Positions 7,890 to 64,000 of a stretch of DNA of 64,000 nt are shown here, in pieces. The first letter of the stretch is position 1. Every line of letters begins with the position of its first letter. The notes under the pieces were generated by a model. The model saw nothing but the letters and a program-made list of their open reading frames with translations, was not told where the DNA came from and ran no database searches. A program made the translations under genes and the position numbers. The DNA is from Escallonia rubra (Eukaryota; Streptophyta; Magnoliopsida; Escalloniales; Escalloniaceae): positions 1 to 64,000 of the forward strand of contig JAVXUO010002456.1 in assembly GCA_033065855.1 (NCBI GenBank), written 5' to 3'.

Positions 7890-10800
7890 GTTGGATGAAA
7901 AGCAAAAATGATGATGATTTCGAGGATCGCGTCGATGAATTTCTCGAGTACGCCTATGCGCATGCTGAATATGTTGACTTTGAGAAGACAAGGTGTTCGC
8001 ACTAAGGAAGATAGTTATTGCATTAGAGAAGAAGAATGGTGGGAAAACATCATCTTCTCCGTTTTGATTTTATGGGTGGATACACAAGGTGGACTCAGCA
8101 TAGGAAAACATTAGTATTGTGATCCAACATGGCTAGTCAATATAAAGTTAGGGTGGAGACGCGATATGATTATCGAGATATGGTTATAGATAATGGGCAT
8201 CATAATGTTGACTGGGATGACTACCGCGATAGTGACAATGAACAACAGTACAATGAGCGTGCTCATCAATTTTATGATTTGTTAAGAGACACCGAGGAGC
8301 CGTTGTGGGATGGAATTAGGAAGGGCATAAGATTGTCTTCAATTAGTAGGTTACTTCAGTTGAAATCGGACCACAGGTTGAGTGAGAAAGGATTTAACAA
8401 TATTAAACATTTATCATGAAATTTTGTCGAAGAGTGAGAAGCTGCCACCGTCATATTATGATGCCAAGAATACGATGATGAAACTTGTATTGGGTTATGA
8501 GAGGATAGATGCTTATAATAATGATTGTGTACTATTCTGGAAAGATAATAAGAACTTGACAAAGTGTCCAATATGTGATTATTCGAGGTATAAACTAGAC
8601 AAAGGGAAAAAGAAAACATTGCATGGAAGGTACTGCGACATTTTTCGATTACGCCAGGCTTCAAATAATGTACTTCTACTTCTCCTCCAATACGGCTGAA
8701 AGTATGAGGGCTCACAATGAGACTCGTAGCAACGATGCCGATATAATGACACACCCTACTGATGATGAGGCTTGGAAGGAGTTTGACCGCAAACATTCAA
8801 CCTTTGCTTAGGAAGTTCAAAATGTTATACTTGGTTTGGCAGCTGATGGTTTCAATCATTTTGGACAGTCTAGCACGCCTTACTCCACTTGGCATGTTAT
8901 TTTTATCCCGTGTAATCTTTCCAATGGAATGTGCATGAAGAAGCCTTACATTTCTTTGTCATTGCTTATTTCCGAGCTGAAGAATCCTGGTAAAGACATA
9001 TATGTTTATTTAAGGCTGTTGATTGATGAGTTTAAACTGCTACGGGGTTGTGTATTTGAAACTTATGATGCATCTCTTAATTAAAACTTTTAAATGAGGG
9101 TCGCTTTGATGTGGACTATACACGATTTTCCCAAATTAGGAATAACGTGTGGCTGGAGCATACATGGAAAGTTAGCATACCCTGCTTGTATGGGCGTGAA
9201 CTCTGGGTATACGCTAAAGCACGGTAGAAAGGCTATGTGGTTCAGATGTCACTGTAAGCTATTGCCACCAGACCATGTTTCGAAGGCAGAAGGATAAATT
9301 TGACGGAATAATAGAACGTGAGGTTGTCACATTGTACTATCCATATGCTGATGAAGTGCTTTCACACCTACAGGCACTTGATACTGACATACCATATGGA
9401 AAGGGTGTGTCAGATTAGAAGATATCAAGATATGAGAAAGAGCATAATTGGAGGAAACAATATATTTTTTGGGAGTTACGTTATTTGAGGACATTTTTTC
9501 GAAACAACATGGATATGATGCTCATTGAGAAGAATTTTTTCGATAATTGTTCGGCATAGTGATATGAATGTAAAGGGAAAATTGAAAGATAACCTTAAAG
9601 CAAGGAAGAATCACAACAATTGGGTGTACATCGTGAATTGCATCATGTTCAAGTCAACAGGAGGATGATACTTTTAAAAGCATCATATTGTCTAAACAAG
9701 AAGCAAGTAGAGAAGGTTTATCAGCGGGTTAAGAATTTGAACCTTTTGGATGGGTACACGTCCAATATATCTTGTTGCTTTAATGTATCAGAGTGTAAGT
9801 TCCAATGGATGAAGAGTCATGACTGTCAGTATTTATGGAATGATTCATTCCTATTGTCTTCTGGGAATTATTGCCAAATGTTGTATGCGAGACTTTGACA
9901 TAATTATCTCATTTCTTTTGAGATATATGTTCTTTAGCACTCCGAATAAGTAATATGTAGGTGCTTGAGTAGAACATTATAGTAACTATTTTCAAGCTCG
10001 ACAAAATCTTCACATCGTCCTTCTTTGATTCGATGGAATATTTGCCTGTTCACTTGGCGTATGAAGCTAAGAAGGGTGGACATATGCAATGTCGGTGGAT
10101 GTATCCATTTGAGAGTTAATCTTTTAACTCTTTGTTGTTCACATACACATAATGCAGACCATGTTATTTTTCATGCTTGGTTCCATAAACTTCTAGGTTT
10201 AACTTCATCTGAAGAAACAAGCCTATAATAAAGCTCGTGTTGAGGGCTCAATTTCTGAGACTTACATAATGGAAGAGCTTGTCAACATTTTTAGCCAATA
10301 TTTTGGGCCTAATGTTGATACATGGTTAAATTAACTACGCCGAAATGAAGTTGGATCCAGCACAAATTTAGAAGGACATTTATCACTATTCAAACATTCA
10401 GGTAGTCCATTCGGACAAACCTATACTCGATGGCTAAGGGATGAAGAGTATATTGCTGCCATGGTATATGCTCTTCTAAATTGCAAAGAATTTTTATCTT
10501 TCATCGAGTAAGTTAATGTCTTCATATAGTTATCATAAATGGATGAGAGTTTAGTTCTTGATATTGGTTTGCAGTGAGTTCGATGTGGAATCTTAACTCA
10601 GTGATCCTGTTGGACTTGGATTTCATTGAAAATCGCAATTTTGTTCGTTGTGTGTGTGTGTGTGTGTGCAAAGAGAAAGAGACATATGTGATTAGTTAGT
10701 ATGCTGATATATCCTTACCTTTTCATGTCTTCTATAATAGGTTCAATAGGTCGATAAACTAGTTGACTCCCTCTTGAAAATATTAGCTCAAGGCCCTAGT

Positions 10801-35596: not shown

Positions 35597-36327
35597 CAAC
35601 AACTCTCAAAATGCTACATTATAATTTCATTTCGTTCATTGGCTTTAAAAATGCAACCCGTCAGTCCAAGATCCCTTCCAAGGAACATTCTCGTTCATAT
35701 AACATCGTTGGTGGTCGTTGTGTTTGTCCTTGGCTTCGGTGGTGTTGGTCGTGCGATGTGGGTTTCGGGTGCAGAGCTTCTTGGTTTGTGTTATTTTAGA
35801 GAGTCTGGGCTTGGGTTTTTTCGTCTGGGCCTTTTTTTTTCCCTCCCCCTCCCCCCAGTTGATACCCCCTTGCCTTAGAAAGGTGCGTTTGGTTGTAATT
35901 GGTGGTGGAGTTGTGTCTGTGTCTTTGTAGTTTTGTATTAGGTTGTGTTGAGTGAAGCTGAGAGCGGTGGTAGCTGTAGGTGGATGAAGGTGTTCTACCG
36001 AGTTGTTGGGCTGTCATGAAGTCGGGGCTTTCGGCTGGACTCTAGTCAGATTCAAGGTTTTCGGCTGGTCTTCGATTAAGGAACAAGTGGTTGTTGTTTG
36101 AGGTAGACCGGGGCTAGGCAGCGGGAATATGGCCGGAGAAGGCGCGGATTCCGGCGTCGGCGTGGGTACACGAGGTTCGAGGTGATAATGCAGTGTTGGG
36201 ACATATGTCTGGTTCTGGGGAGGTGGCTGGCAGTGTGGTCTGGTGTTGTGTGTGTTTTTTATTGGTTATTTCATTTCGGTATTATCTTGTTTAGTTAGAG
36301 TTTATCTAGTTGGTTGGTTTCTTTTAT
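35597..36327. other. GT-rich spacer, no gene recognised
   Basis: A plus-strand G/T-rich stretch with several short open frames of low complexity (GGTGGTGTTGG-type). It could be the tail of a non-LTR element, but no domain is visible. Confidence 0.35.
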
Positions 36328-36483
36328 GGGAGCTGATCCGTTGCTAGCGCTGGCAGGCTTGCCAGCGCTGTTTTGCCGTCCGCTATATAATGTAGCGGAC
36401 GTCAACTATCGTCCGCTACATTATGTAGCGGACGGCAAAACAGCGCTGGCAAGCCTGCCAGCGCTGGCAATGGATCACGACCC
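36328..36483. mobile_element. 156-bp hairpin MITE related to MULE-A
   Basis: Nearly perfect inverted repeat: arms of about 70 bp around a short loop centred at 36405. Ends are GGGAGCTGATCC and GGATCACGACCC. The 9-bp duplication TTCTTTTAT lies at 36319-36327 and 36484-36492. Each arm carries one copy of the 19-bp palindrome CCGCTAC-N5-GTAGCGG (36380-36398 and 36413-36431) also found in MULE-A. The end sequence resembles AGCTGATCCATTACTCATGC at the left of MULE-A, so it is probably a non-autonomous derivative. Confidence 0.9.
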
Positions 36484-36492
36484 TTCTTTTAT

Positions 36493-47119: not shown

Positions 47120-48743
47120 TTAGTCTATGTGAAACCTGACTGCCATTTTTTAATTGCTTTCCAAGCAGATTCCACCCATTTCTTCAATTAGTCTTCTTAT
47201 TTCTTTTATTTCCTCGTTTGGTTATGCTTCTTCATCAAAAGCTAAAACTCATTTTCTTACTACTTTAGACTCTTTCATTTGCCAACAAATCTTACCTAGA
47301 TGAGATCAGAGTGATTTAAGTGATCAAGCAAAGAGAGGGTACTAAAAATCGATCAGAAAACAGATCAAATCTTACCTTCAACCTTCGACATACACACAAT
47401 CACTTATTTTAAATATGGATCAATTTGGGGTTTCTTTGATATGAGGTGGCCATTTTTGTAGATATAAAATTCTCTTGATTTATCTTGACTTTGACGATAT
47501 GTTGTTCAATTGCACAATTCAATTTAGGAGGGGGTGAATTTAAGGAAATCGACCTTGATCTTGTTGATTTTGGAGAAAGAGATGGCGGTAACGATTTAAA
47601 GAAAATTTAAGAAGAAGAAGAAGAAAAGTTATGAAAGAAAAAAAAGAATGAAATGGGGGTTAAATGGGTCCATTCTCAAAATCGTTACATATATCCGCTT
47701 GTCAAAGGATGAACCTGATATTCTGGAAAGTCTATAGAGATGAGTATAAATTAGCATAGCAGCCTTATCCGGGTTGCAGGAAGATGGAAGATACCTACAA
47801 TCTCCCAAATAGTGACAAGATAGCTACCTCCCAAATAGTGACAATTAATGGTCATTAATGTCTTTAGTGGCTTTTATTTAGTGGCGTTAAAAAGTGCTGT
47901 TAAGAATTATTGTCAAAAGTGTTAATAGGAATTTCACTAACTGTTTTTAGTCACTATTAATTATCATTATACGAGAAATTGTAACTATCTTTCTAAAACT
48001 CGGGTAGCAAGAAAAAAGTTTCTTCAGTTAGCTCATAACCCTAAGGAGTTTGGAAATATTGTTCCTTTAGTTATTTGGACACACATATAAAAGAACAAAT
48101 TGGTTATCTACTCGTCGTTTACTTTCATTTGGTAAATCATATTCACACCACAGATTTTGATAGTGAAAAATTGGAAACGAAATTCTACAAAAAGCTACCT
48201 ACTTTTGCCACGTTCTTTCATTTGACATGAATATCTCCCTCTATCTCTAAGCATGAAGATACATCTTTGTTTCTTTTGTTAGTTTTTCTTCTTTAACTAT
48301 AGCTTGAAGTGACATGTCAAATCATGTTTTAGTTTTGTTTTATATTCTAACATGAAAGTTCACATAAATGGAACCAACATATGTAGTCCCCACTGTCACA
48401 ACGTGTATCGAAAATTTTACTTTTTTGAGTTGTCGTCTTATCTTATGATTAATCAAAATAATTAACAGAAAAAACAAGAAACTCTAAAATTGACTCTAAA
48501 TCACCAAACAAGATATCTAATCTTCGAATCTTAGATTTGGACTCGAGGACTAAGTTATATGATGAGAAGGCATTAGGCACCTCATCATATCCTAAATAGG
48601 TGTATACTTGCTTTTATTGATTTTTGATGATTTATATTCAAAATAAGAGCATATCATTGTTTAACTCTAACTATTGGTTTGAACTTAACAACTTGGGATG
48701 AGTGTATATATTAATCCTTCAATTTATATATAGATGTCATACA

Positions 48744-48745
<2 letters not shown>
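47120..48745. other. AT-rich spacer, no gene recognised
   Basis: No coding content or clear transposon ends seen. A GAAGAA tract lies near 47610. Confidence 0.4.

Positions 48746-48806
<61 letters not shown>
48746..48806. repeat. (TA)n microsatellite at the left border of MULE-A
   Basis: About 30 TA units, followed at once by a G-rich run. A TA-rich tract also abuts the right border of MULE-A, as expected if the element entered such a repeat. Confidence 0.97.
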
Positions 48807-48808
<2 letters not shown>

Positions 48809-48859
48809 GGGGGTGGGGGCTGTGAGCGTGTGATAGCTGATCCATTACTCATGCAGGCA

Positions 48860-49226
48860 ACTTCAGCAAGTTGCTCACACGATCTGGCCGTCTATCCTTG
48901 AAGGATGGGCGGCCCAGATCTAGTTTCTTTTTTCTTTTTCTTTTTTAAATCGTCCTCTACATAATCTAGCGGACGTTCATTTTATCCAAAATGCCCCAAA
49001 ATCCCCGTCTTTTTTGTGGAACAGTGCACGTCCGCTATATAATGTATCAGGTGACTTTTGATTTGACATGTTGTCAGCCAAAAGTCGTCCGCTACATTAT
49101 GCAAATGATGACCTTTTTCTGCCACCTTTCAAATCTGTTCCCTCACCGTCCACTACATTATCTGGCAGATGGCGAGACAATTTGTCTTTATCCAAACTCT
49201 TACTCGTCCGCTACGTAATGTAGTGG
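48860..49226. repeat. Left terminal inverted repeat of MULE-A with five palindromic sites
   Basis: The 19-bp site CCGCTAC-N5-GTAGCGG occurs, with substitutions, at 48954-48972, 49032-49050, 49089-49107, 49150-49168 and 49208-49226. The last copy ends 8 bases before the TATA box of the mobile-domain gene. Confidence 0.88.
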
Positions 49227-49234
49227 ACCGGAGA

Positions 49235-49242
49235 TATAAATA
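49235..49242 (+). promoter_or_regulatory. TATA box of the MULE-A mobile-domain/Ulp1 gene
   Basis: TATAAATA directly follows the terminal palindromes and precedes a leader with likely introns (donor TACATG|TAAGTTC region near 49370, acceptor near 49578). Confidence 0.55.
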
Positions 49243-49578
49243 CGGGGACCCCTAATTTCGTAAGTTTTCTTCATTCTTCACTATCTTCCCAGCGGTGCTG
49301 GCAAGTAGATCTACAATTTTTGTGTCTTTGAGCCCTTGAATCTTCGAAAGCATTTCTTAAATCGTACATGTAAGTTCACAATCCAATATTTTATTTGTGT
49401 ATAATCTTGAGTTTGTGAGTATTGCACATGATTTTGATGATATGTAATGTATGAATAAATGTGCATTTGTGTGTGTGTGTGCGCGCGCGCGCGTGCATGT
49501 GATAGTGTTGGCAAAGCTAGATTTGCCAACGTTTGATAGAAATTTTCGAAGTTGATATATTTGCATAATTTTAGTCTT

Positions 49579-52500
49579 AAAAAAGGCTTTTAACCCCGGA
49601 CCCGAAGATCCCTCCATCTTGTATGACCAAGCAAACCATATTAATACAGCAATTTGGAACGGACAAGTAAGATACTAAATTTTTATTATTTATTTAATTT
49701 CAATCATGGACATTGTATAACTTGCTTAAATACGCTTTGTTAATTCATAGGAAAGAGGAACACTTAATACAGTAGAAGTAACAGAACATTTTGGAGAGTG
49801 GAGTTTGAACAATCTACACAAAAAATTGTTGCGTATAATGGGGCTTAGGATTTTTACCTATGGGAATATGTTTTCGTAGCATGACTGGACCTTAATATGT
49901 GCCCTTGTTTGAACGGTGGAGAAGTGACTCCAGAGATGACAGTAACCTTAGAAGATATAGGGTACATCTTAGGGTTACCCGTGACGGGACGACCGATTAT
50001 TTCTAGTAAGATTGGAGCGAAAAGTAAGAGATTTTCTAGGGACTTCTTCTGTTCGATACTCGAGGACCAGTTTGGGCACAGTGGAATAAAGTTGAAATGG
50101 TTGGTAGAAACGTTCAAGGCTTTGCCAAAAGACTTCACGAAGAGGATGCTTATTATGTACACAAAAGCTTTCATGTTGTGGGTGATGGGGGTCATTTTAT
50201 TCCCAACGATGACAAAGAACACAGTCCACGTGAAGTATTTAGCTCTGTTGGGTAAGTTATATGAAGTTGGCGAGTATGCTTGGGGTGCAGTCACACTTGC
50301 ATAGTTGTATCACACTCTGCACAAGCCAACGAGGCCCGACTGCAAAGCTATATGTGCATGTCTCTCATTGTAGCAGGTATATAATATAACCCATTTTAAT
50401 TTCTTTTTTGATAATTTTTTATTAGTCACTGAACAATAAAATTTGACCATATTTCACCTATTTGTCTTTGTTCTCAGGTGTGATCTTATGAACACTTCAG
50501 TATCAGCGTACCCGAACGTAGGCCCGAAATTGAAAAAATCTGACCTTGATTGCGCGCTTGGGAGTACAGTTAGAGGGAGAGCCACTACCGAGGAGAGATG
50601 ATCCCCATCACAACTATCTCCGGGCCAAATGTGTTGGGTGTCGTCTAAGCATTTGAAAAACTGGGTGGCATAGTTGTTCATTTTTACGCTCTCTGGGTTG
50701 TAATGCACTCCATTGATTCATTGGGAGATCGCAGAGTGGAAACTAATGGATCGCATCATGCGACATTTTGAGTGCCTGCAGGGGTTGCCAGCAGATGCCT
50801 CAGACAGAATGTCCCAATGTTCAGGATGGTGGATGCCCTCGAATAGTGCGCTGGCGAGATTAGACTGTGGGAATCATGGAAGGACACGCTGGCAGCCATT
50901 GTGCCAGAGCCTAACCTTATGGTCAGCATCAAGCGGTATCTGTGGTGGTACGACCGCATCACTCGGAGGAGAGTACACCCGTTGCAGTGGCAAGAGGCAA
51001 GAAATACCAGCCCAGGGGTGTAATTGATCAGCAGAGAGCATTCAAGCTCGTAAGTTTCCTATTGACTTTCACGTAGCATTCGATCTCACAAGTTTCCTAT
51101 TTAATTTCATGTAGTGTTTAAATTTACTTATGATCTAACTTGATGTAGGTTGATTCCTCGCTTGCCTTCTTCGAGAAACTGAATGAGCGGAAGGATCTTC
51201 TACATGCCATGGGAGTGGATCTTCGCTCCCAGGCTGAGATCTTAGCGCATAGCTACGGGGATTTTGTGAGGGGCTATATGGGACAGCCTTCGGGTGTGAA
51301 CCCAAAAATGGCTTATCCCTTGGGGCAGCCTTCAGGTGTGAGTGATGGCATGGGTGATACCTCGGGGCAGCCTTCAAGGGTGAGGGAGGGAATTGGTGGT
51401 CCCTTGGGGCAGGGAATAGTTGATCCTTGGGGGCAGCCTTCGGGTATGAGCTAGGAAATGGCTCATTGAGATGAGTGGATTCAACCCTCATTTAAGTTGC
51501 TTAGGCACTTGAATGTTACACTAGATCCCCGGAGTCAAGTCACACAAGATTTCAACTTCACGAACTTCAACTTCTCAGGGTCACTACAACTCGTCCCATG
51601 GGCAGGAACTTCCACTTCGGATCTTGGGATACCCGAAGAGCCTCAATGAAAAAAATATCCCCCACGTCGATCTCATCCCTTTTGTCCCTAAGGCCATCCG
51701 TTGAAGCCCTTGAAGTCGAAAATACGTGCCCTAGTCCACAAACGTTGGTTTAGTGAGCCCCCAACTACGCTCTCAACATCATGTTCAATATGATGAGATT
51801 GATTATGATATCTCTCGGGACGAAATGTCCATCCTCAAGCTGTGTGCTCGGTTTGAAGATACGGTGTCCACTACCTATATCAAGCTTTTGATCTGTAGAG
51901 AGGGGGATAGGGAAGATGCGTATCCTTTAGTTTTTATGTTCGATGCGAATTTTAGTTTTATGCTCCATGGAGAATGGCAAGAATGGTGTAGGGTGAGAGG
52001 GACGAAAACATTGTTGTAATGGCCTCAGCCTAAGCTCACTAAAATTTTCACGAATTCTATGAATTCAGTGAGCTTCTTTAATGCGGATTTCTTTCTAGTA
52101 CCCTGCTTAGACCACAATCGCTGGTATTTGCTTTGCTGTGAACCATCAGTTATGAGAATTTCAATCCTCAATAGTCTCGACAACTATACTCACTAGATGC
52201 CTCTGAAGGACCTTTACAAAGAACGATTGGGGGCTATGGTGAGCTTTCCAACTGTCTTTACAGTTTTTCTATTTTTTAATTTAATCATTGTAATTTGACT
52301 CTCATAGCTTACGTTTGTTTTATTATTCTGCAGGATTTGTTTTGTGTCATTCTTCACGACCTCTGTGGGCTATAAGTACCGGCACGGCTGAAGCTCGATA
52401 TTCGGTGAAAAAAAAATAGGCCCATGCAAAAAGAATGACTCGGACTGCGGTGTCTATATGTTGATGTACATGGACTTCATTTGTTGGTTTGAGAGCCTTA

Positions 52501-52625
52501 AGAAGGCTAACTAAAGCCAAGACGACATAAACAACTCTAGATATAGGATAGCTTGGCAAATTGAACAATGTAAACCTAGACAAGTCAGGGATATTGTAAA
52601 TTTGGCTAAACCAAAGGCCGAATAA
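49579..52625 (+). pseudogene. Plant mobile domain + Ulp1-like protease gene of MULE-A, broken
   Basis: First coding part: GPEDPSILYDQANHINTAIWNG (in two lines of the domain start, 49598-49668), then after an intron ERGTLNTVEVTEHFGEW (49752-49803). The domain core follows with EMTVTLEDIGYILGLPVTGRPI (49935-50000), VILFPT, and EVGEYAWGAVTLA. Its C-terminal part has TPLIHWEIAEWKLMDRIMRHF (50708-50770) and KRYLWWYDRITRR (about 50930). A short GQPSGV repeat segment lies at 51280-51450. The C48 (Ulp1) part has HNRWYLLC with the catalytic-type His (52112), ILNSLDN where the usual Asp is Asn, and NDSDCGVYMLMYM with the Cys (52430-52470). Frameshifts and stops break it. Mobile-domain proteins of this kind include Arabidopsis MAIN/MAIL1; Ulp1 enzymes remove SUMO-like tags. 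Their purpose in MULEs is not known. Confidence 0.83.
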
Positions 52626-52874
52626 CATTGGACGTATGTTTTTTATGTAATTAAATATCACTTGATATGATTATTGAGCATTTCTTTCTCGTATTTGATT
52701 GTTTGATGTGATTTCAAAATGTCATGTGTTTATGGTTTGAATATTTCTTTCTGGATGTGGTGCGTTATAGTTGAGTATCGCTTTTGAGAATGTGGGGGTT
52801 GAGTGGTTGCTTTGAGAATGGTTGAAATGGGTTGATGGTGGGTTGAAATAAAGGCAAAATAGGTTTTAATTGCT

Positions 52875-53360
52875 ACTTTATCGCCCACCACATTATGTAG
52901 TGGACGGTAGTGCAGTGTAAAGCATTATACTCCACGGTGGAGCAGAATGCTTTTTTTATTGGGAACTACAAGTATGAATTTTTTCAAAGTGTTGGAGTGC
53001 AATGTTTCCGCTCCACGGCCCGTTACCTTATGTAGCCGACTATGGAGCAGAATGCTTTTTTGGGTTGAGAACTAGAAGCATGAATTTTTTCTATGTAGCG
53101 GACGGTTGAGCATAATGCTTTCTTATGAGTTTTTTTTTTCTAGAAGTATTGGGAACTAGAAGCTCAAAAAATTTTCTACGTGTTGGAGTGCGATGTTTCT
53201 GCTCCACCGTCCGCTACATTAATTATGTAGCGAACAATGGAGCATAATGATTTTTTTTGGGTTTTTTCCCCTCTAAGTGTTGGGAACTAGAAGTAGAATT
53301 TTTTCTAAGTGTTAGAGTGCAATGTTTCTGCTCCTCCGCTACATCATGTAGAGAACACAA
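52875..53360. repeat. Internal cluster of the MULE-A palindromic site
   Basis: Directly after the Ulp1 part, copies or parts of the palindrome recur: 52885-52903 (complete), about 53020-53038, 53092-53104 (half), 53210-53232 (with 4 extra spacer bases) and about 53336-53354. They are embedded in loosely repeated 110-160-bp units with GTTGGAGTGCAATGTTTC and GGGAACTAGAAG. Confidence 0.8.
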
Positions 53361-53455
53361 TTTGTGAATAACCCAATGTTACATCAAATTTGATTATTAA
53401 TAAAAGAAAAGATTGTTACAAAGTCCATAATTCAAATACAAAGTCCATAGGCTAA

Positions 53456-53872
53456 GTGTCTGTTTGGTAATGTTTATTTTTTCATTTTCTTCTTCAGTTT
53501 TGTAAAATGGAAAAAATAAACCGGTTTGGCACACAGTTTTCTTTTTTTTTTTCTTTCAGTTTTGAAAACCAGTTTTTAAAATAGGACTTTTTTTGAAAAC
53601 TTCCATTTAGGAGTTTTGGGTTTTATTTTGAGACCATCACCACCACAGCCACCGCCCACCATCGTTAGCCGGCATGCAGCCACCACCGGCGACCGCCGCC
53701 GACCACTTTGTCGACCACCGTCATTGCAAACCATCACCAAAGAAAAAACTCAAAATAAAAACTGGGTAATCAAACACTCATTTATTTTTGTTAAAAAAAA
53801 ACTACACTAGTTTTTGTTTTTGTTTTTTTGGAAATAGAAAACCAAAACTGGAAGTGATTTCAAAGGCTACCT
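53456..53872. mobile_element. Possible Tourist-like MITE inside MULE-A
   Basis: Begins GTGTCTGTTTGGTAATG after TAA, close to the Tourist start consensus, and ends TTCAAAGGCTACC before TAA. The middle is CCACC-rich and noncoding. Inverted end similarity is modest. Confidence 0.45.
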
Positions 53873-54085
53873 AAAGGTCCACTTCATCTTCTTCGGTATC
53901 ATCATCTTCATCTTGCAAACCCCATGCTCTTATCCCCAGTGCCTTGTAATGATTCCGCTTGTCATGGTTAGTCATTTAGTTTCACAATGCACACTTTCTC
54001 AGCTTCTTAGGTTTGGTTGCTTGTTCAATAGAGCTCTTCATCCGTGTAGATCTCTTGTGGTCTTTCCTTTACGATATAATTGGAT

Positions 54086-56127
54086 TCAATGGCCGGATAA
54101 CTTTGTCTTCTTCCTTAACCGGATTAATATCTTAGGATCCCTGTGAGGAATGCCTTTAGTGCTAGTCGCATTGCTAACTGAAGCTACTTCAAAATGGTCG
54201 ACCATGGGATCTTGCTCTAGCGCTAGATCGTGAAGATATTTATATCTGGCCATTGTAAAAATACATTTTACGGACAAACGTGTGAACATTATCACTAGAT
54301 GATTATATCACAACATCTCTGATTCTTCAACATTAGTATCCGGATGCTCCGGAAAGGCAATGGTGCCGTGCAATCTGTTTCAACCATAGTCCATCGTGGC
54401 AAAACATATATATTGGGGATTGCCTTGATATTTTTTGAGTGAAAAACAGCGAAATGTGTCAACACAACATGCTAGAGAACTCAAACTTCTTCCAAACACC
54501 TGTCATCGTATCCGTCTATGTGTGATGGTTCACCGTATACATTCTATGAAATTTCTCAAGGGCGAGGTCGTTCATTGACGAATAAACCTTGTATTCATGT
54601 GTAGACTTTTTTGCGACCTTGTTTATTTTGTATCATCCCGACTTTTGTAACTCTACTTGGTATTTTATGAACATCTCCTTGGTATAAACTTTTGCACCAT
54701 TCATCTCCAGTGGGGTCTCAAGCAGCCTTCCTGCTTGTTTGTACGTGCTTGCAAAATCCACTGCCCTTTCTTTCACGACTATATATGCAACTGCTTTTTG
54801 GGCATTTATGACAAAACTCTTCAAATTCGTAGATGTACCTACATATCTATCAAATAGGGCATTCATAATATTGACTCTTGCCCGTCATTTTCATCCCCGC
54901 TGAAAAATACCTTCTGGTGTAAACGTCAATCCAATGTTCTTTAAGCTCATACAAATATTGGAGCCACTCATGGTCTTGCAATGAGTAATCCTCCAAGATT
55001 TTCCCACCTCCCTTCAAATTCTTCAATCGTTAGTGACTTATTAACACACCTATCATAAAGTCTGGATACTTTGCATATAGGTCATGTATACGTTCAGGGT
55101 ATGGGTTGCTTATGTGCCAAGTGCATAAGTTGTGTCGAGTATCTGGGAAGACGGTAACAATAGCCTTCTTCATTATCAAATCTTGATCTGTGATAATAAC
55201 TTTAGGTGCTTTCTTATTCATGGCTTACAGCCACATCTTACACAAACATACAAAAGAACTTTCCTTCTCATCCCTTAACAGTACGAACCCAAATAAGATG
55301 GAGTGATAATGATGATTAATGCCAGTAAAAGGAGCGAAAGACATCGAATACTTGTAGGTACGGTAGGTGGTGTCAAAAGTTACAACATCCCCAAAATTTT
55401 GATATGCTTGTCTTGAACGACCGTCGAGCCAAAAAATTGTGGTAAGTCGATACTCGTCGTCGAAATTAAACTCGTAAGTAAACTGAGGGTTCTGCATTTT
55501 GCATCTGCTTCAATAGGCTCATTGCGGATTAAGCATCATTGATGTCAAACGCGACTCATCTTTGGGTTTGGACCGTGTTACAAACGTATGTCGTGTTGAA
55601 ATTCAAATTCTGAATTCCCTTAGCATGTTCAACAAGAAAATTAACAATATCAGTAGGTCATATCCGCACGTTACTCATTGTGTGAATCAGGCTCCTTGAA
55701 CAGTGGTTATCTTCTTGTGTTGGTGCATCTGACTCACCTTTGAAGGCGTTACTTCCAAGCTAGTAATAATCCAATGATCTTGTTTGGATTTATGGCTTAC
55801 GAACATCTTGACCTTACATTCCGTGCACGCAAAAAAGTCCCGTCTTCGGGGCGTATATCCCACTTCATCATCACTATCGTCATTACTTACATGTTTCTCA
55901 TTTTGTAATGGATGTCTACTCCTATGACACTCATATAACCGTGGGTGCATTTTTTTTTTTTTTGTTATGGCACTTATTCTAGTTGTCGTAATTCTAAAGC
56001 CAAAACCAACCCTCAACGAATACGCTCGAAACCATTCTTCAGCTTCTTCCGATGTTTAAAATGTTCGCCCTAGATAAGGTTCACTAGCATCTACTGGTGT
56101 GTTCGAGCTTGACACAAAATCAAACAT
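54086..56127 (-). pseudogene. FAR1/FHY3-type MULE transposase of MULE-A, broken
   Basis: Read leftwards from an ATG at 56127. The FAR1 DNA-binding region has TSEEAEEWFRAYSLRVGFG, then RRRDFFACTECKVKMFVS..DHWIITSLE (56050-55740). The MULE catalytic domain has GDVVTFDTTYRTYKYSMSFA with the first Asp (about 55385), GINHH, and PKVIITDQDLIMKKAIVTVF with the second Asp (about 55190), then CTWHI. Further on, YSLQDHEWLQYLYELKEHW (about 54970) should hold the catalytic Glu region, followed by RYVGTSTNLKSFV and a basic RDPKI..RLRKKT tail near 54100. Stops and frameshifts interrupt at least five places. A probable 5' noncoding exon lies at about 58530-58419 with donor AGCAG|GTAAGT, so its first intron would contain the GC-rich satellites. 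This family moves Mutator-like elements; host FAR1 and FHY3 derive from it. Confidence 0.87.
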
Positions 56128-57128
56128 TGTGAAGCAAGACTTACGTAAAAATAACTTATAGTTAAGTATCAAATTGTAACAATTTTTAGGCATTCAAATT
56201 AATTACAAAATTATAACATCATTGTTGCCGAGGAAAGATGGTTCGGATGCCACGTGAGGTGCCACAAAGGATGCAGTCTGCGTTGGCTTCCAAGTAGACA
56301 AAGTGGGAGACAACAAGGATGGAGTAAGGGCTGAGAGCAAGGCTCCCCAGACAGGTCGCGAGGGCTGGCAGCACCGCGTAAGCAGGGGGACGACGAACAG
56401 GGGCGGCAGTCAGCAGTCGACAGTCCGCGTCAAGGGTGCAGCGTCAATGATCCAACGTCAGGAGTCCGAATGTCTTTCTCTCACTAGAAATCCAGAGAGA
56501 ATGGGTTTTAGAGAGAGAAAGTGAAAATGTCAAATGAGAGAGAAGTCCTTGAATAAGCTTCAGAATCCACTATATATAGGCACAAATATGCGCGTGTCAT
56601 CAGCCAACACGTGTCGTCCTCTGGGAGTGACACGTCGCCGTAGGGGGTCCCGCAGTATTGATTGTCCGTCGAATATGCCGGTCCCCGAGTTCGTGCCGCC
56701 CTGCCCTTGCAGCGTCCCTCTGCCTATCTAAGGAGACTGACGACACCACGGTAGCATGGTCAGAGCAGCCCGTTGCCCCAGCCTCCAGTCCAAGCCCTTA
56801 CTGAATCCCATGAGATGCGTCATGATACGCGCCGAGATCCTGGCAACGGTGAGGGTTGCCCCTGTAGCCAACTGCTAGGTGTGCCGAACACGATGCCCTC
56901 CGAGGACCTACTCCCGTCCCGGAGTGACTCACGGTTCATTGCCCTGGCGATATCGATGATCAATGGTAATATGAGTGCGCATGCTCACAGCTCGATACCC
57001 AGAGTCCATGGTGGGGGGTCCTTGTGCTGGAACACTACGAGCGGAGCCTTCCCAAAGCCTATCAGTTGATTGTGAGGGTGAGGGCTGGAGCCCCCGGTTG
57101 ATTGAGCCGGTGAAGGCATTAGGGTTGC

Positions 57129-57417
57129 GAGCCCATCCCGGATGCGAGGGCCGGAGCCCCGTCGCTTTGAATGAGACGGCGATGGCTATAAGGTTGTGAG
57201 CCCATCCCGGATGCGAGGTCCGGAGCCCCCGTCGCTTTGATTGAGACGGCGATGGCTATAAGGTTGTGAGCCCATCCCGGATGCGAGGGTCGAAGCCCCG
57301 TCGCTTTGATTGAGACGGCGATGGCTATAAGGTTGTGAGCCCATCCCGGGTGCGAGGGCCGGAGCCCCGTCGCTTTGATTGAGACGGCGATGGCTATAAG
57401 GTTGTGAGCCCATCCCG
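57129..57417. repeat. 69-bp tandem repeat, about four copies
   Basis: GAGCCCATCCCGG recurs at 57129, 57198, 57268, 57337 and 57406 (spacing 69, 70, 69, 69). Units contain GTCGCTTTGATTGAGACGGC. Confidence 0.96.
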
Positions 57418-57461
57418 GTAGCATGTAACATGATTGTGGCGCATGGGCGCGGTGCCTATAA

Positions 57462-57715
57462 CACGAGACAATACCTAGTGTCGGGGAATATGTTATGAAA
57501 GTGGTGCGACGACGAACATCACGGAGCAATACTTGGTGCCGGGGGCACATATGATGAGAATGGCGAACGGGCGAGGCGACGAACGTCACAGAGCAATACT
57601 TGGTGCCGGGGGCATGTATGATGAGAATAGTGCACGGGCGCGGCGACGAACGTCGCGGAGCAATACTTGGTGCCGGGGGCACGTAGCATGAGAATGGTGC
57701 ATGAGAGCGGCGACG
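57462..57715. repeat. 67-bp tandem repeat, about four copies
   Basis: GAGCAATACTTGGTGCCGGG recurs at 57524, 57591 and 57658, 67 bp apart, with a diverged copy at 57465. Units contain GATGAGAATGG and GCGACGAACGTC. Confidence 0.94.
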
Positions 57716-57964
57716 AGTGTCCCGGAGCTGGCGCGCGGACGCAGGCGACGAAGGCCACGAAGAGGGCGCGCGGGCGACGAGGGACGAGAGATGAGAGTCG
57801 CGAAGCTGGCGCGCGGGCGACAAGAGTCATGTAGCTGGCGCGCGGACGCGGGCGACGAAGGTCACGGAGATGGCGACGAAGGTCACGGAGATGGCGCGCG
57901 GGCGACGAGAGTCACAGAGCTGGCGCGCGAACGCGAACGATCGAAGTCGGTCGTCAAGGTGGGT

Positions 57965-58055
57965 GGTTGACCCCCTAGGGTGGCCGACCCCTTAACGTGG
58001 CAGACCCTTCAGGGTGGCTGACCCCCGAAGGTGGCCGACCCCCTTAAGGGGAAGG
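57965..58055. repeat. About 20-bp tandem repeat (GGTGGCCGACCCC)
   Basis: Four to five units of AGGGTGGCCGACCCCYT-type sequence end the GC-rich block. Confidence 0.8.
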
Positions 58056-58552
58056 CACACCAAGGCTCCCTCACAAAGGGAAAATGCACGTGACTTGAGC
58101 ATGCGTCGCTTTGACCGGCCTGTGAGCGTTGAAAAGTTGACCGTTGAATATGCCGACGTGTCATGAGAATTGGGACCCCCAGTGGGCCTATAGGTGTAGC
58201 CAAGATAGGGTGGGAATAATCATAAACATAACAAATGAAAATTTAAAAATAAGTAGACTAGCATGTCAAATACAACAAACATAATCTCAAAACAAATTAT
58301 ATGAACTTGACCATGGTACCCATTAAGACATATAAACTTCAGCACGTTACCCATCAAAAATATAAATATCCAAAAAAGCTACATATACACCAATAAGCCT
58401 TTATTATCACAAACTTACCTGCTTGAGTGAAGCTTGGAGCTTAATTGCTTGAAGCTTGGAACTTGGAAGGCTTGAAGGGAGTTGAAAATGGAGACAAGTG
58501 GAGCTCAAGATATTGAAGATGTTGAACAAGTAAGAAGAGCTATAAATTAAGG

Positions 58553-58885
58553 CTTTTTTAGGTATATCTGCCTCATTGTCCGCCAGATAATGACACGGAC
58601 GATGAGGGGACAGATTTGAAAGGTGGCAGAAAAAGGTCATCATCTACATAATGTAGTGGACGACTTTTGCCTGACAACATGTCAAATCAAAAGTCGTCCG
58701 CTACATTATGTAGTAGACAGACATTGTTCCATAAAAATGATAGGGATCTGGGTCTGGGGGCATTTTGGACAAAATGATCGTCCGTTACAATATGTAGCGG
58801 ATGGTTTTTTTTAAAAAAAAAGAAACTATATCAGGGTCGTCCGTCCTTTAAGGATGGACAGCCAAATTGCGCGAGCAACTTAGCT
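58553..58885. repeat. Right terminal inverted repeat of MULE-A
   Basis: Inverted copy of 48860-49195. Palindromic sites lie at 58580-58598 (diverged), 58641-58659, 58698-58716 and 58782-58800, mirroring the left side. Confidence 0.88.
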
Positions 58886-58888
58886 GAA

Positions 58889-58894
<6 letters not shown>

Positions 58895-58964
<70 letters not shown>

Positions 58965-59052
58965 GTAGTCCTATGTATACTAGAATTATGGTTTATCTTA
59001 GCAGGATGAGAATATATATGTATACGATATATGTATGTGCACACACACACAC

Positions 59053-59089
<37 letters not shown>

Positions 59090-59128
59090 CGTGTGCGCGC
59101 GCGTGCGTGTGTGTGTGTGCGCGCGCGC

Positions 59129-59163
<35 letters not shown>
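58895..59163. repeat. (TA)n and long alternating purine-pyrimidine tract
   Basis: TA repeats (58895-58960) are followed, after about 60 mixed bases, by an unbroken alternating tract (about 59024-59163) of CA, TA, TG and CG steps. It separates MULE-A and MULE-B. Confidence 0.92.
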
Positions 59164-59175
<12 letters not shown>

Positions 59176-59262
59176 GTTGTTGATGGCCCAGATTTTACTT
59201 TCTTTTTCTGAAAAGTGCTAAAATGCCCCTCGCAAGTCCCTAGGCAGTGTAAAATGTACTAA

Positions 59263-59347
59263 CCGCCACTCTTAGCAGCAGTCAACCGCTCCTAAGAGTA
59301 GCGGTCAGGGCATGGACCCACACCCTAACCGCTACTCTTAGTAGCGG
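59263..59347. repeat. Upstream palindromic sites of MULE-B
   Basis: Three 19-bp sites at 59263-59281, 59286-59304 and 59329-59347. The last is CCGCTAC-TCTTA-GTAGCGG, a perfect palindrome with 5-bp spacer, identical in arms and spacing to the MULE-A site. Confidence 0.9.
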
Positions 59348-59379
59348 TTAGACGGGATGCCACTAATACCCACTTTCTT

Positions 59380-60240
59380 TTCTTTTGACTTTGACTCTCA
59401 ATTTCTCCATCTCTCTTGTCCTTTCACTCTCTACATCTTCTTCATCCTTCCCAATTCACTCCTCCATAATCCCCACCATTTTTACCATAATACAAGCTCT
59501 TCTCCCACGCTAGAAGAGTGGTGAAGAGTAGTTAGAAGAACGGTGGACAGTGCATTAGAAGATCGGTGGAGAAAATATCTTGCTTGGATTCACTTCGAAA
59601 CAAGTAAGTGTTTCAAATTTTCTTCCATAGATCCATGTTGCTTTCATGAAATGTAGCGTCTTTAGGTTTCAATTTATGTTTATTATAAGTTTTGAATTGT
59701 GTTCTTACTATAAATTGAAATTGGGGTTTTCTTAGGGATAAAAATTAGGGTTTTTTTAGGTTTTGATATTAGAAGAAGATGATAATGCCTTTATAAGTTC
59801 GAAATTACAACTTTATGTATGGATTGAAATTAGTGGTTTTTAGGTTTCGAAATTCGGGCTTTATCAAGGTCTCAAAATTGGGCCTTTTTTAGGGTTTCAA
59901 AATTAGGACTTTTCTATGCTTCGAAATTAGGGTTTGAAATTAGGACGTTAATATCTTTTTAAGAAATTATTATTGTTTAAAGATTCAAATTTGGGTGTTA
60001 GGTTTAACAATTAGGGCTTTTTCTAGGGTTTAAAGTCGGTGTTTTGTAGGATTAGAATTTGAACTTCAATTATTTTAACTTTTTTTTGTATTTTAGTTAA
60101 TATTACCCTTTTCAAATATAGTTAGTATGCATGGTAAGTTCATTTTAAATTATGTGTTCTTGTTTTAGATTTGAAATGTAAATAGTTTGCACGCTACGTT
60201 GGTTTACAATTATGTCTTCTTATTAAAGATATAGAGTTTA
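59380..60240 (+). other. Leader region of the MULE-B gene
   Basis: CT-rich leader-like sequence (59385-59500) is followed by AT-rich intron-like sequence. From 59720 to 60040 a degenerate GGTTTCRAAATTAGGGCTTTT motif recurs about ten times. Confidence 0.5.
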
Positions 60241-62929
60241 ATCATGGGCCTTATGATCCATCGATCCTTTACAATGATGATAACCACGTCGCAAGGGATG
60301 TATTTGAAGGTGTGGAATGAGATGTTTTAGAAACGATTCAAACACGAGTCACCTTCAAGAGTAGATACTAAATGAGGAGCAACAACATATATTAAAGCGG
60401 CAAGGCTTTTGTTTGTTCATTGTCCTTCGTTATTGGTCTCGGCACGACGGGCGCCTTATATCCACTCTAGTTGAGCGATGGTGGAGCGAGACGAACACAT
60501 TTACTTCCGGTTTGGTGAAATGACTATTACATTAGAAGATGTCGGCTTTATTCTCAAACTCCCATGCTATGGCAGACCCATTACTTCGAGTATCGCGTCC
60601 GTAACAGTAGCTCAACTTGCGAGGCAATATTTTCCAAGAATTCCGTCGAAAGCCGTTACATCAAATGGCATCAAGCTCATGTGGTTGAGAGGGCAGTATA
60701 GTGGGTTACCTAATGAATACACTCCTCATGATTTAGAGACGTATATGAAGGTGTTCTTCTTGTACATTATTGGAGCTGTATTGTTTCCTATGCATTAGAA
60801 GAACATGGTGCATCTGAAGTGTATGATGTTCTTGGATGACCTTGAGGAGGTTCAGTCGTATTCGTGGGATTCAACTGTACTTGCGCACCTATATCGAGCA
60901 CTGCATAAAGCCACAAGAAAGGGTGCCAAGTCAATTGCCGCCTGCCTGACTTTATTATAGGTATGAGTATTTATATTTTTGGTTGACATGTCAATATGTT
61001 CTTGATTACTTATTAATTTCATACAATGTTTGACTTCACATATTTGGTGTTATGAAAGGCTACCCACGGGTTGTCCCCTGCCACGAGATGATTCTGAAGA
61101 GACGTGGCCTAGGTTATTGGCTTGGGAGCATGGCTTCCCTCATACGCCCAGTAGGAAGAAAAGGGTAGACCCCAATCACCATCTGAAATTCTATCAGGGG
61201 TAGCCAAAAATATTAGAGGCATCACAGGTCAAGTGGTAGCCCTACTCTAAAGCGATGCAATGGTTGGATCAGTGGAGTTGGTAACTTACTGTGTCATGTG
61301 TGCTGGCAGGTTTGGTTCGGGTGTCGCTCATTCATTTTGAGACATGTGAGTTCCAAATGCCCAATCGCGCAATGAGGCAAGCTGGATAACTGCAAGGGAT
61401 ACCGAACCCCGTTGTAGACATGCAGACATATAAGAAGGGCAGAGGGCTGAACTTCGACCAACTTGATGCCTTGGATATGTTACGCGACGAGGTCCAATAG
61501 TGGAATACATGGAAAGATACGTACGATAGCTTTGTATCGATGAAGAACCCCAGCACTGATATCTAAGAGTACCTAGAATGGTTTCTCAGGGTGACGCGCA
61601 CGAGGGTAAATTGCCCTTCACAGGCAAAGAGGACATCGTATGAGCCACGTGCGATATATGACCAGTTCTGGGCTTTGAACATTGTAAGTATTTTTCTTCT
61701 GCTACATTTTTTATTTGTATTCTTGTCGAGCATGCTCACCATGTGGTTGATTATTCATATTTTTCACCTTTCATTTTCTTTAGGTTGACATGGGCAGTGA
61801 GGTGTTCAAATAGCTGGAAGGGTTTGACTGGTTAGTCAAGCATGCCCCTGACAATATCAAGAAGTCCATTGAGAGGTACAAGACTGAAGTACGCAACTTC
61901 AATAATACGTATCGGGGTTACCAGGGGGACCCATGTGGTGGTTTGTCTGTTGACGCGTATGGTTCTCAGCCCTGGAATCAGGTGACCCAAGTAACTCCTC
62001 AGGAGCGCCCACTGATCCGGTCGGACAAAGGAAAACCAACGAAGGTTCTGATGCCAACCAAGCGAGATTGGATTGACGACTACTTTGTGCCTGAGCCAAC
62101 GGCTATAATAGACTTCCTTATTACGAACGTGGCCAGTTTGTATTACATAGGTCATAAGGACATCAGGACGTTGGCACTGGAAACAGATCTTGCCAATTTT
62201 GTCATGGATGCCGACACGGATCTGCTTCAGATTAGAGAGCCGCAGAGAGGTGAAGATCAACATGTATCCCTATCATTTCATGTTTATCTTGCTAGATAAC
62301 ATGAATAATTTGACAGAATGGAGGAAGAAGAAAGGGAAGAACAAGGGTGCATGGATACCCTCACCGAACTTGCAGGGCATGATGAGGTCGGACAATCAAT
62401 GTTAGTGTCGGAGGCAAACATGATCATGATATCTCATATACATGCCAACCACTTCTTTTTATTGGTCGTGTATCCTCTGACGAAGTCGGTCCACATCTAT
62501 GATAGTTTGAGGGAGGATGGTCCTGGACAGCAGTTAAATGAGATGTACAAAAAATACATCAATGTAGTGGTTAGTCTAGAATGCAGTGTAAATTTTACAT
62601 TGGTTAGTCTTTGAATCGTTGTTGGTGATTGTTACATTTGTTTTTGCATACTATTATCCTTCCACTAGCCATACGCCATCATTTGGGGGAGGCCATCACG
62701 AGCAATCCAACGTTGGATCCTTGGATGGTCGAAACGATGCAAGTCCGGCCAAAGCAGTACAACAGTCATGACTGTGTTGTTTATGTGCTCAAGTATATGG
62801 ACTACTTAGCTCGTGCAGAGGATCTCGAAACGACGACTTAGTCTCGAAGGGATGCCCTAACAATTAGATATAGGATAGCTTGGGAGCTCAAAAAGGGTGT
62901 AGCTAGGCATCTTCCTTATTATTATTGAT
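60241..62929 (+). pseudogene. Plant mobile domain + Ulp1-like protease gene of MULE-B, broken
   Basis: The domain start reads GPYDPSILYNDDNHVARDVF (from 60248). The best preserved stretch, 60478-60798, has GEMTITLEDVGFILKLPCYGRPI and VFFLYIIGAVLFP; after a stop the frame goes on with EEVQSYSWDSTVLAHLYRAL (60849-60905). Its C-terminal part has SLIHFETCEFQMPNRAMRQAG (61330-61390) and EYLEWFLRVTRTRV (61570-61610). The Ulp1 (C48) part has HANHFFLLVVYPLTKSVHIY with His, then DSL with Asp (62440-62510), and KQYNSHDCVVYVLKYMDYL with the Gln and Cys (62750-62812). The catalytic residues are thus all present, unlike in MULE-A, but stops in the domain and before the protease part disable the reading frame unless splicing removes them. 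The gene ends near 62929 with RYRIAWELKKGV, matching the RYRIAWQIE end in MULE-A. Confidence 0.85.
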
Positions 62930-63159
62930 GTACTTTACACTACAAATTGTATATAAAAGTTTTTTTCACATTAATGTGTTTGATTGTATTCCGAATTATT
63001 GGATTATCTTGAGAATTGTTCAAATTTCTTGCTTCACTTCAAATAGGCTTGCTTCTATTTTGACAATTATTGTTATAATTGTGAGATGGATTTTGAGATT
63101 TCTAAAGAATTGTTAGAGGGAACATCTGTAGGTCTGGTTAGGCATAAAGTGAAAGGGAG

Positions 63160-63199
63160 ATAGAGATTTTGGAGGGGGGAGAGGGGGGGGGGGGGGGTT
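63160..63199. repeat. Poly-G run
   Basis: A G-rich stretch with about 17 consecutive G precedes the palindrome array. Confidence 0.95.
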
Positions 63200-63209
63200 T
63201 GGTGTGTGA

Positions 63210-63408
63210 CCGCTAGTAAGTGTAGCGGTTAGGAGGTGCCCCCAGTATCTCTAACCGCTATTGTCTCTAGCGGTTAGAGATACTGGGAACATCCTCTAAC
63301 CGCTAGACTTTGCAACGGTTAGGAGGCTCCCCCAGTATGTATAACTGCTACTATGTCTAGCGGTTAGGGATACTGGGAGCATTCCCTAACTGCTAGAGAC
63401 AGAAGCGG
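63210..63408. repeat. Five palindromic sites at exact 45-bp intervals (MULE-B)
   Basis: Sites start at 63210, 63255, 63300, 63345 and 63390. Each is 19 bp of CCGCTA-N7-TAGCGG type. Linkers alternate between GGAGGTGCCCCCAGTAT-type and its inverse ATACTGGGAACATCC, so neighbouring units are also mirror images. Confidence 0.95.
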
Positions 63409-63461
63409 TTACCTAATTGGCCCCCTTTTTGTGTATTTAAAGGAAATTTGAATTTTTTTTT

Positions 63462-64000
63462 CAGAGTCACCCCTCTTTGGGCACACTTATTGGCCCATTT
63501 GTCGCTTTGGGCAAAATTTAATAATTGTTTTTTTGTTTTTTCATACTTTTTACTCTTTGGGCACACTAATTGGCCCATTTATTTGTATTTCATTGGAATT
63601 TGAATTTTTTTTTTTGTTTTTTCAGAGTCACCCCTCTTCGGGCACACTTGTTGGCCTTTTCATAGCTTTGGGTGAAAATTGATAAAAAAAACTTTTTTTA
63701 GACTTTTTACTCTTTGGTCACACTAATTGGCCCTTTTGGTGATTTTCAATGGAATTTGAAAAAATATTTTTTTTTTTCAAAGTCGCCCCTTTTCGGGCAC
63801 ACTTATTGGCCCTTTCGTAGCTTTAGGTGAAAATTGATAAAAACAATTTAGACTTTTTACTCTTTGGGCATACTAATTGGACCCTTTTTGTATATTTCAA
63901 TGGAATTTCAAAAAAAAATTTGGTTTTCTCAAAGTCGCCCCTCTTTAAGCACGCTTTTTGGTCCTTTCATAGCTTTGGATGAAAATTGATATATTATTTT
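63462..64000. repeat. About 155-bp tandem repeat, running past the window end
   Basis: CAGAGTCACCCCTCTTTGGG-type starts recur at 63462, 63623, 63778 and 63930 (spacing 161, 155, 152). Each unit has two ...GGGCACAC.NATTGGCCC segments. Noncoding. Confidence 0.93.

Follow-up and report, generated by a model that had tools for sequence, protein, structure and literature searches.

The window analysed here, the first 64,000 nucleotides of contig JAVXUO010002456.1 of Escallonia rubra (assembly GCA_033065855.1), carries a miniature inverted-repeat transposable element (MITE) and two Mutator-like elements (MULEs), termed MULE-A and MULE-B, which have a short palindrome in common, CCGCTAC-N5-GTAGCGG. 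All these features are placed on one contig of a 566-Mb genome that comprises 3222 contigs. The MITE (36328..36483, no strand) is a 156-bp inverted-repeat element with the ends GGGAGCTGATCC and GGGTCGTGATCC, outside which lies a 9-bp target duplication, TTCTTTTAT (36319-36327 and 36484-36492). It holds two palindrome sites (36380-36398 and 36413-36431) and recurs in at least 39 other places in the genome with 93-99 % identity (40 scored of 1102 candidates).

MULE-A begins with a terminal inverted repeat (TIR) at 48816..49240 (no strand; outer limit read by eye), in which sites start at 48954, 49032, 49089, 49150 and 49208 with 2, 3, 4, 4 and 1 mismatches, respectively. It is followed on the plus strand by a gene broken by stops (49840..52640) that encodes a plant mobile domain (PF10536, Pfam E=1e-20) and an Ulp1-like part. 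Two Ulp1-side pieces had no Pfam match; the likeness to Ulp1 comes from tblastn matches to related loci and from similarity to MULE-B. The linker between both parts contains tandem peptide repeats (51149-51454). Between this gene and a convergent, likewise broken FAR1/MULE transposase gene on the minus strand (54636..56055; PF10551 E=6e-12; PF03101 at 25.7 bits, under the cut-off of 28.1) lies an internal array (52885..53354) with sites at 52885, 53020 and 53336 and more degenerate copies. The right TIR (58579..58885, no strand) has sites at 58641, 58698 and 58782. Several families of GC-rich tandem repeats, with units of about 67-70 bp and 17 bp, occupy 57098-58062 between transposase and right TIR; being unlike the rest of MULE-A, they are perhaps a nested insertion.

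MULE-B has three upstream sites at 59263, 59286 and 59329 (59263..59347) that have AA..TT-type flanks. Its plus-strand mobile-domain/Ulp1 gene (60365..62913), again broken by stops, matches the mobile domain at E=5e-10 and Peptidase_C48 (PF02902) at E=6e-6, and an internal array (63210..63408) consists of five sites with an exact 45-bp period (63210, 63255, 63300, 63345 and 63390). The element is incomplete within the window: its remainder covers 63409..64000 and continues past the window end, where a transposase remnant lies on the minus strand at about 64270-65000 (locus L047). Right behind the array, four copies of another repeat, spaced 152-161 bp, fill 63415-63991 up to the window end.

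In the window, 13 sites match the palindrome with at most two mismatches, compared to 0.04 expected from 100 shuffles. At up to four mismatches there are 24, two of them elsewhere and 22 in the MITE, MULE-A and MULE-B, which agrees with the initial annotation that the three share the motif; the reversed control gives 8 over the whole window. One four-mismatch site, at 60578 inside the mobile-domain exon of MULE-B, is probably due to chance. The contrast in flanks and spacers also holds, MULE-A and the MITE having GT..AC around ATTAT, ATAAT or a like spacer and MULE-B, in its upstream sites, AA..TT around TCTTA or TAAGA. By contrast, the view that arms and length are both fixed in nearly all of some 20 copies stands for the length only, since the arms are exact in just two of the 22 sites (five have one mismatch, six two, six three and three four).

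Across the genome, the search proposed at the outset returned 7263 exact sites for CCGCTAC-N5-GTAGCGG against 3 for its reversed control, a number that chance does not come near to explaining and that confirms the palindrome as genuine. With spacers of one to four bases only 26 sites exist (control 4) and with six to 16 bases 74 (control 25), and the length of the palindrome is therefore nearly invariant. Flanks of AA..TT occur at 251 exact sites, while 43 (15+28) are mixed at -1, with A preceding the left arm and again following the right one, or the reverse. Symmetric variants are abundant as well: CCGCAAC-N5-GTTGCGG is found at 1341 exact sites (control 0) and CCGCGAC/GTCGCGG at 294. One-arm forms between the CCGCTAC and CCGCAAC types account for 658 sites (257+401; control 0).

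The surroundings of the sites were studied in twenty 10-kb loci (L005-L024) chosen around exact sites listed for contigs C1-C25, leaving out L001-L004, which are contained in larger loci. They yielded 177 sites at up to two mismatches; three pairs overlap (L011/L012, L016/L017 and L018/L019), so the twenty are not independent elements and some sites are counted twice. Mobile-domain, Ulp1 or FAR1/MULE transposase sequence is recognisable in 14 of the 20; the MULEs concerned have their mobile-domain/Ulp1 gene and their FAR1-type transposase on opposite strands. The other six (L007, L013, L014, L015, L020 and L024) have no recognisable MULE coding and all show inverted repeats around their sites, as would non-coding or miniature MULE derivatives. 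The proposed clustering at mobile-domain/Ulp1 MULEs gains partial support from these loci, every one of which was picked around a site. None of the 177 sites overlaps recognised coding sequence (19,473 of 202,119 bp, with L021 extended by L048), a count that leaves introns and unrecognised exons outside.

The flavour of the site, i.e., its flanks and arm form, follows the clade of the mobile domain. Genome searches with this domain scored 150 of 2648 and 150 of 2362 candidate places. The three clade-A places listed on contigs C1-C25 (on C1, C9 and C17) all have sites within about 3 kb. For a comparison of clades, about 1.6 kb 5' of ten places from each clade was taken together with the earlier loci, and a site was accepted if it matched any of four arm forms with no more than two mismatches. 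At least one site lies between -1300 and -550 in 13 of 15 clade-A loci; none is flanked by A..T, although a different base occurs on one side of two of these sites. In L026 and L030 this interval is empty at that threshold, and the upstream sites of L027 are nested copies matching the window MITE. Sites are present in 4 of 12 clade-B loci and have A..T on both sides, except for one with another base on one side. The palindrome takes a 27-bp form, about CCGTCCGCTACAYWRTGTAGCGGACGG, in clade A and the form CTAACCGCTAC-N5-GTAGCGGTTAG in clade B1. When the whole fetched stretch is considered at up to three mismatches from CCGCTAC, matches occur in all but one of the ten clade-A regions and in six of the ten from clade B, some of them in neighbouring or nested elements; L030, L031 and L039 have sites of the other flavour further upstream, and the fetched stretches of L026, L038, L040, L042 and L043 have none at this threshold. 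The number of upstream sites varies between loci.

Extension of L040 to C1013:4000-19500 uncovered a MULE with long inverted repeats, a mobile domain, Ulp1 and a transposase, the latter an open 699-aa frame (L045) with FAR1, MULE and SWIM domains. The initial annotation had expected intact related elements to carry the site. In this open-frame B-type element, the one element extended, CCGCTAC is missing and the symmetric CCGCAAC-N5-GTTGCGG is present: the ends of this B2 element carry AACCGCAAC-N5-GTTGCGGTT, which differs from the common palindrome by a change at position 5 of each arm. The idea of a clade B2 devoid of the site was consequently dropped for the extended C1013 element, though only there and not for L042 and L043. 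Nine clade-B places with 66-70 % identity have an exact CCGCAAC-type site within 10 kb in three cases and not in six, among the matches listed.

Two further observations concern mobile-domain loci. Upstream of the clade-A mobile domain of L026, which is without the CCGC palindrome, five copies of a different palindrome, CAGTCGACTG, mostly surrounded by AAT..ATT, lie at L026:394-549. A switched target was considered and dropped: L026 matches clade-A upstream regions only from about position 1174, and the repeats therefore probably belong to something else. Secondly, a mobile-domain match at G000:C884:530064-530429 lies within an open frame that, at 1873 aa, greatly exceeds the exon length usual for this domain and might be a fusion gene.

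The linkage to clade also bears on whether a host transcription or silencing factor binds the site, with MULEs either exploiting this factor or being its targets. That diverged clades share one core would suit such a factor, and Arabidopsis genes down-regulated in main/mail1 share a promoter motif, 'DOWN', according to PMC7156037. However, the flavours differ by element clade, which is better explained by self-encoded proteins than by one host factor, and we regard this explanation as improbable.

What is conserved is the motif itself, the dyad being kept across 48 unrelated flank contexts among 175 distinct sites with at most two mismatches. Flank information amounts to 0.4-1.2 bits at -4 to -1 and to no more than 0.16 bit further out, at the positions printed; given the selection of sites by mismatch, only flank and spacer information is unselected. 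The two arms appear to be coordinated, as judged by permuting arms among 149 distinct sites (2000 shuffles, relatedness ignored). Symmetry exceeds the shuffled mean at -1 (138 versus 105.8, reached by 0 of 2000), -2 (105 versus 85.9, 2), arm position 7 (98 versus 78.4, 0), arm position 5 (108 versus 95.6, 1) and the outer spacer pair (133 versus 124.8, 0), less clearly so at the inner spacer pair (72 versus 61.2, 68) and arm position 6 (130 versus 128.0, 217). After near-identical sites were collapsed to 82, 0 of 2000 shuffles reached the value at -1, 6 that at arm position 7 and 28 that at arm position 5. This set retained only sites with CCGC..GCGG intact and is therefore silent on the core. 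In the fetched sites, paired changes concentrate at arm positions 5 and 7 and at -1 and are rare in CCGC: symmetric double changes number 13 at position 5, 19 at position 7 and 2 in total at the other five arm positions, where 80 changes are one-sided.

Such a dyad could alternatively act as a hairpin or cruciform, in DNA or in a transcript, with a stem of 9-10 bp and a loop of 3-5 bases, instead of serving as a protein address. When folded as single strands of DNA, all four 23-mers tested do form the complete hairpin (-9.3 to -11.9 kcal/mol), and no shuffle folds as well. Yet any base pair should do in a stem, whereas positions 1-4 and 6 have just the two symmetric changes (a modest argument, with 6.0 doubles expected and 6 seen). 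Nor is an exact 5-base spacing obviously needed, and spacers are self-complementary (ATTAT) or not (TCTTT) depending on the family. We would give a structural role little credence.

The motif might also be devoid of function, spread by element copying and local duplication, with arms made symmetric by template switching. Column-wise conservation not above that of the surroundings and the tandem arrays, which demonstrate local duplication, are in line with this. On the other hand, the motif keeps a constant length in its 48 flank contexts, and alignment of ten related clade-A upstream regions (L030, whose aligned site is B-type, was left out) gives 26 indel openings within the 19-mers (4269 bases compared) and 328 between them (13620 bases), a rate about four times lower inside. 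Symmetrising should moreover affect the core, where two symmetric changes stand against 80 one-sided ones. A functionless motif thus appears highly improbable.

The carriers belong to the MULEs by their transposase domain (PF10551 in the MULE-A piece and, at E=2e-32, in the open L045 frame), their TIRs and a target duplication within the 8-11 bp range, and their termini directly flanked by (TA)n place them with MULEs of TA microsatellites. A search with GGGAGCTGATCC (up to two mismatches, GGG fixed) gave 30 terminus-like matches, a few of them likely chance and one place counted twice; (TA)4 or longer lies within 24 bases outside 22 of the 30, compared to a background of 1.1 % of bases. Repeats of (TA)n are visible at element ends in the window (48739-48816 and 58894-58961), in L005, L007, L008, L012, L015, L018-L020, L023 and C1013, and in others; one such repeat in C1013 lies between the ends of two elements, which are about 36 bases from each other. 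Like MuTAnT and SaTar elements, the MULEs of this group therefore seem to have TA repeats as their target. Ten elements were tried for target duplications: two have exact 9-bp copies (TTCTTTTAT at the window MITE and ATATATCTT in L013), five gave microsatellite-only matches, L011 has a 10-bp match with one mismatch, and none was found in L018 and L019.

Within these elements, some sites lie close to the ends and others in tandem arrays that separate the convergent genes. Both TIRs of MULE-A, of the C1013 element and of L018 contain them, L018 being a near-complete element with TIRs at 2889-3078 and 8821-9008, whose mobile-domain and Ulp1-side remnants lie on the strand opposite to its transposase. 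Sites so close to the ends raise the possibility, still tentative, that the palindrome is a subterminal site of the MULE transposase, needed in cis for transposition and recognised through its FAR1 (WRKY-GCM1-type) zinc finger, the internal arrays being by-products or regulatory decoys. Where a terminus-like match has a site within 400 bp (19 cases), the distance from the terminus inward to the first site is 97-122 bp in 11 cases; in the window MITE, which retains little besides ends and palindromes, it is 52 bp. A FAR1 domain is present in the open transposase frame of the C1013 element. MURA binds the ends of maize Mu, and the GCM site is ATGCGGGT, a word that a search of the GCM/WRKY literature did not confirm and whose GCGG core recurs in the palindrome. 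However, many-site arrays between genes, away from the ends, are unneeded for transposase binding, and the number of upstream sites is not constant. Such arrays, with units mostly of about 54-78 bp, exist in L010, L011/L012, L016/L017, L023 and the neighbour of the C1013 element; those of L011/L012, L016/L017 and L023 come after the Ulp1 gene.

Our preferred explanation, with a probability of about 0.42, is that the palindrome would be the site of a homodimeric protein encoded by the carrier MULEs, most likely the mobile-domain/Ulp1 protein, which may oppose silencing in a VANC-like manner. A DNA-binding homodimer would recognise two half-sites, each with a CCGC core that hardly varies, at a fixed distance from one another. 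By marking the non-coding DNA of its own family, the mobile-domain/Ulp1 protein would counteract silencing like VANC in VANDAL elements, and the benefit drawn from it in trans would explain why the site is retained in non-autonomous and MITE copies. From the sequence features we infer binding, the identity of the protein and anti-silencing: fixed spacing, dyad, nearly constant core, matched changes and clade-specific flavours fit a homodimer with diverging specificity. The dimeric DNA-binding protein initially suspected gains from the spacing, the dyad in 48 contexts, the paired changes and the absence from recognised coding sequence, but not from the arms, which are no better conserved than their surroundings. 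Encoded in the same elements, mobile-domain protein and transposase are inseparable by sequence here; near-end sites would suit both, while arrays between genes appear to fit a regulatory or anti-silencing protein better, and the VANC-like role is slightly favoured over transposase binding.

Several results weigh against this proposal. In an alignment of 11 related clade-A upstream regions, which includes L030, identity is 72 % in the arms and 74 % in the remaining columns. Differences within the dyads mostly affect a single arm; paired changes make up 45 of 647 (7.0 %), compared to 1.1-4.9 % in slid controls and, in 189 outside blocks, to a median of 0, a 95th percentile of 6.2 % and a maximum of 16.9 %. 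With arms unconserved relative to their neighbours and paired changes in the minority, many copies simply decay. Independence predicts 10.7 double changes at position 5 and 13.2 at position 7, where 16 and 20, symmetric or not, were seen, and the six doubles at the other five positions, two of them symmetric, equal the expectation; the contrast between positions is modest, comes from loci fetched around CCGCTAC sites and is suggestive only. Eight of the 12 clade-B loci are without a site in the stretch examined, and the subterminal placement of the first site adds to this side. To our knowledge, no DNA-binding domain is known in the mobile domain or Ulp1; DUF1985, the VANC domain, was not found in the protein pieces scanned against Pfam (six pieces up to E=10). 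Searches of PDB sequences with the transposase and mobile-domain open reading frames returned no match.

A description of the palindrome was not found in the open-access literature, where the word matches listed, judged by title, included none about a transposon. The initial claim of novelty thus holds within open-access text, although the neighbouring idea of a MULE-encoded protein that binds motif arrays is published for VANDAL/VANC. As far as the consulted parts of PMC5735166 and PMC10398659 go, VANC motifs lie in non-coding DNA as tandem repeats that differ between subfamilies, and VANC proteins have tandem peptide repeats in variable regions (PMC5735166). The resemblance to VANDAL21/VANC21, an Arabidopsis anti-silencing system, concerns a transposon-encoded protein, here a putative binder, and a short motif dense in the non-coding DNA of the element; the motif is arrayed here too, with tandem repeats differing between subfamilies, and the MULE-A linker has tandem peptide repeats. 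Unlike the VANC21 motif YAGTATTAY, as given in those parts a 9-base word arrayed in one orientation, the site described here is a dyad of 19-27 bp, and where VANC is reported with DUF1985/DUF287 these elements encode a mobile-domain/Ulp1 protein. VANC is a working analogue, by likeness and not by membership. That mobile-domain/Ulp1 MULEs constitute a second, independent system of self-recognition and anti-silencing, with a palindromic address of fixed length read by the protein of each family, and families diversifying through matched changes in both half-sites and in the protein, is rather doubtful.

KI-MULE (Kaonashi) and other Ulp1-bearing MULEs likewise have an Ulp1-like gene opposite to the transposase (PMC2528002, in part). 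KI is described there as non-TIR, in contrast to the TIRs of MULE-A, L018 and the C1013 element, and mobile domain and palindromes were not found in the portion of text on KI. The (TA)n flanks and short non-autonomous derivatives are shared, according to extracts, with MuTAnT (PMC4486113), SaTar/Micron (PMC5907723) and Ac-mMITE (PMC8449440), the 9-10 bp duplications outside microsatellites with SaTar and Ac-mMITE, and ends beginning with GGGG with MuTAnT (GGGGTTTGCTAGAACA in that family). None of the terms palindrom, Ulp1 and mobile domain is used in PMC5907723 or PMC8449440, and AutoMuTAnT differs by its single open reading frame, as given in the extract of PMC4486113.

Mobile-domain proteins exist throughout angiosperms, and two have a silencing role in Arabidopsis (PMC5418596, in part). 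The same part of that article contains a speculation by Ikeda et al. that MULEs which captured a mobile domain use it for anti-silencing, a role so far only proposed there. The elements described here resemble MAIN/MAIL1 and mobile-domain MULEs (PMC5418596 and PMC7156037, as excerpted) in that a mobile domain resides in MULEs and anti-silencing is suggested. Thousands of dispersed copies, MITEs included, could bring sites near host genes. Unlike the mobile-domain/transposase fusions of grasses and Amborella reported in the excerpt of PMC5418596, the Escallonia elements have separate convergent genes and a cis motif, which, with its clade-specific flavours, offers a direct DNA target for testing the anti-silencing proposal.

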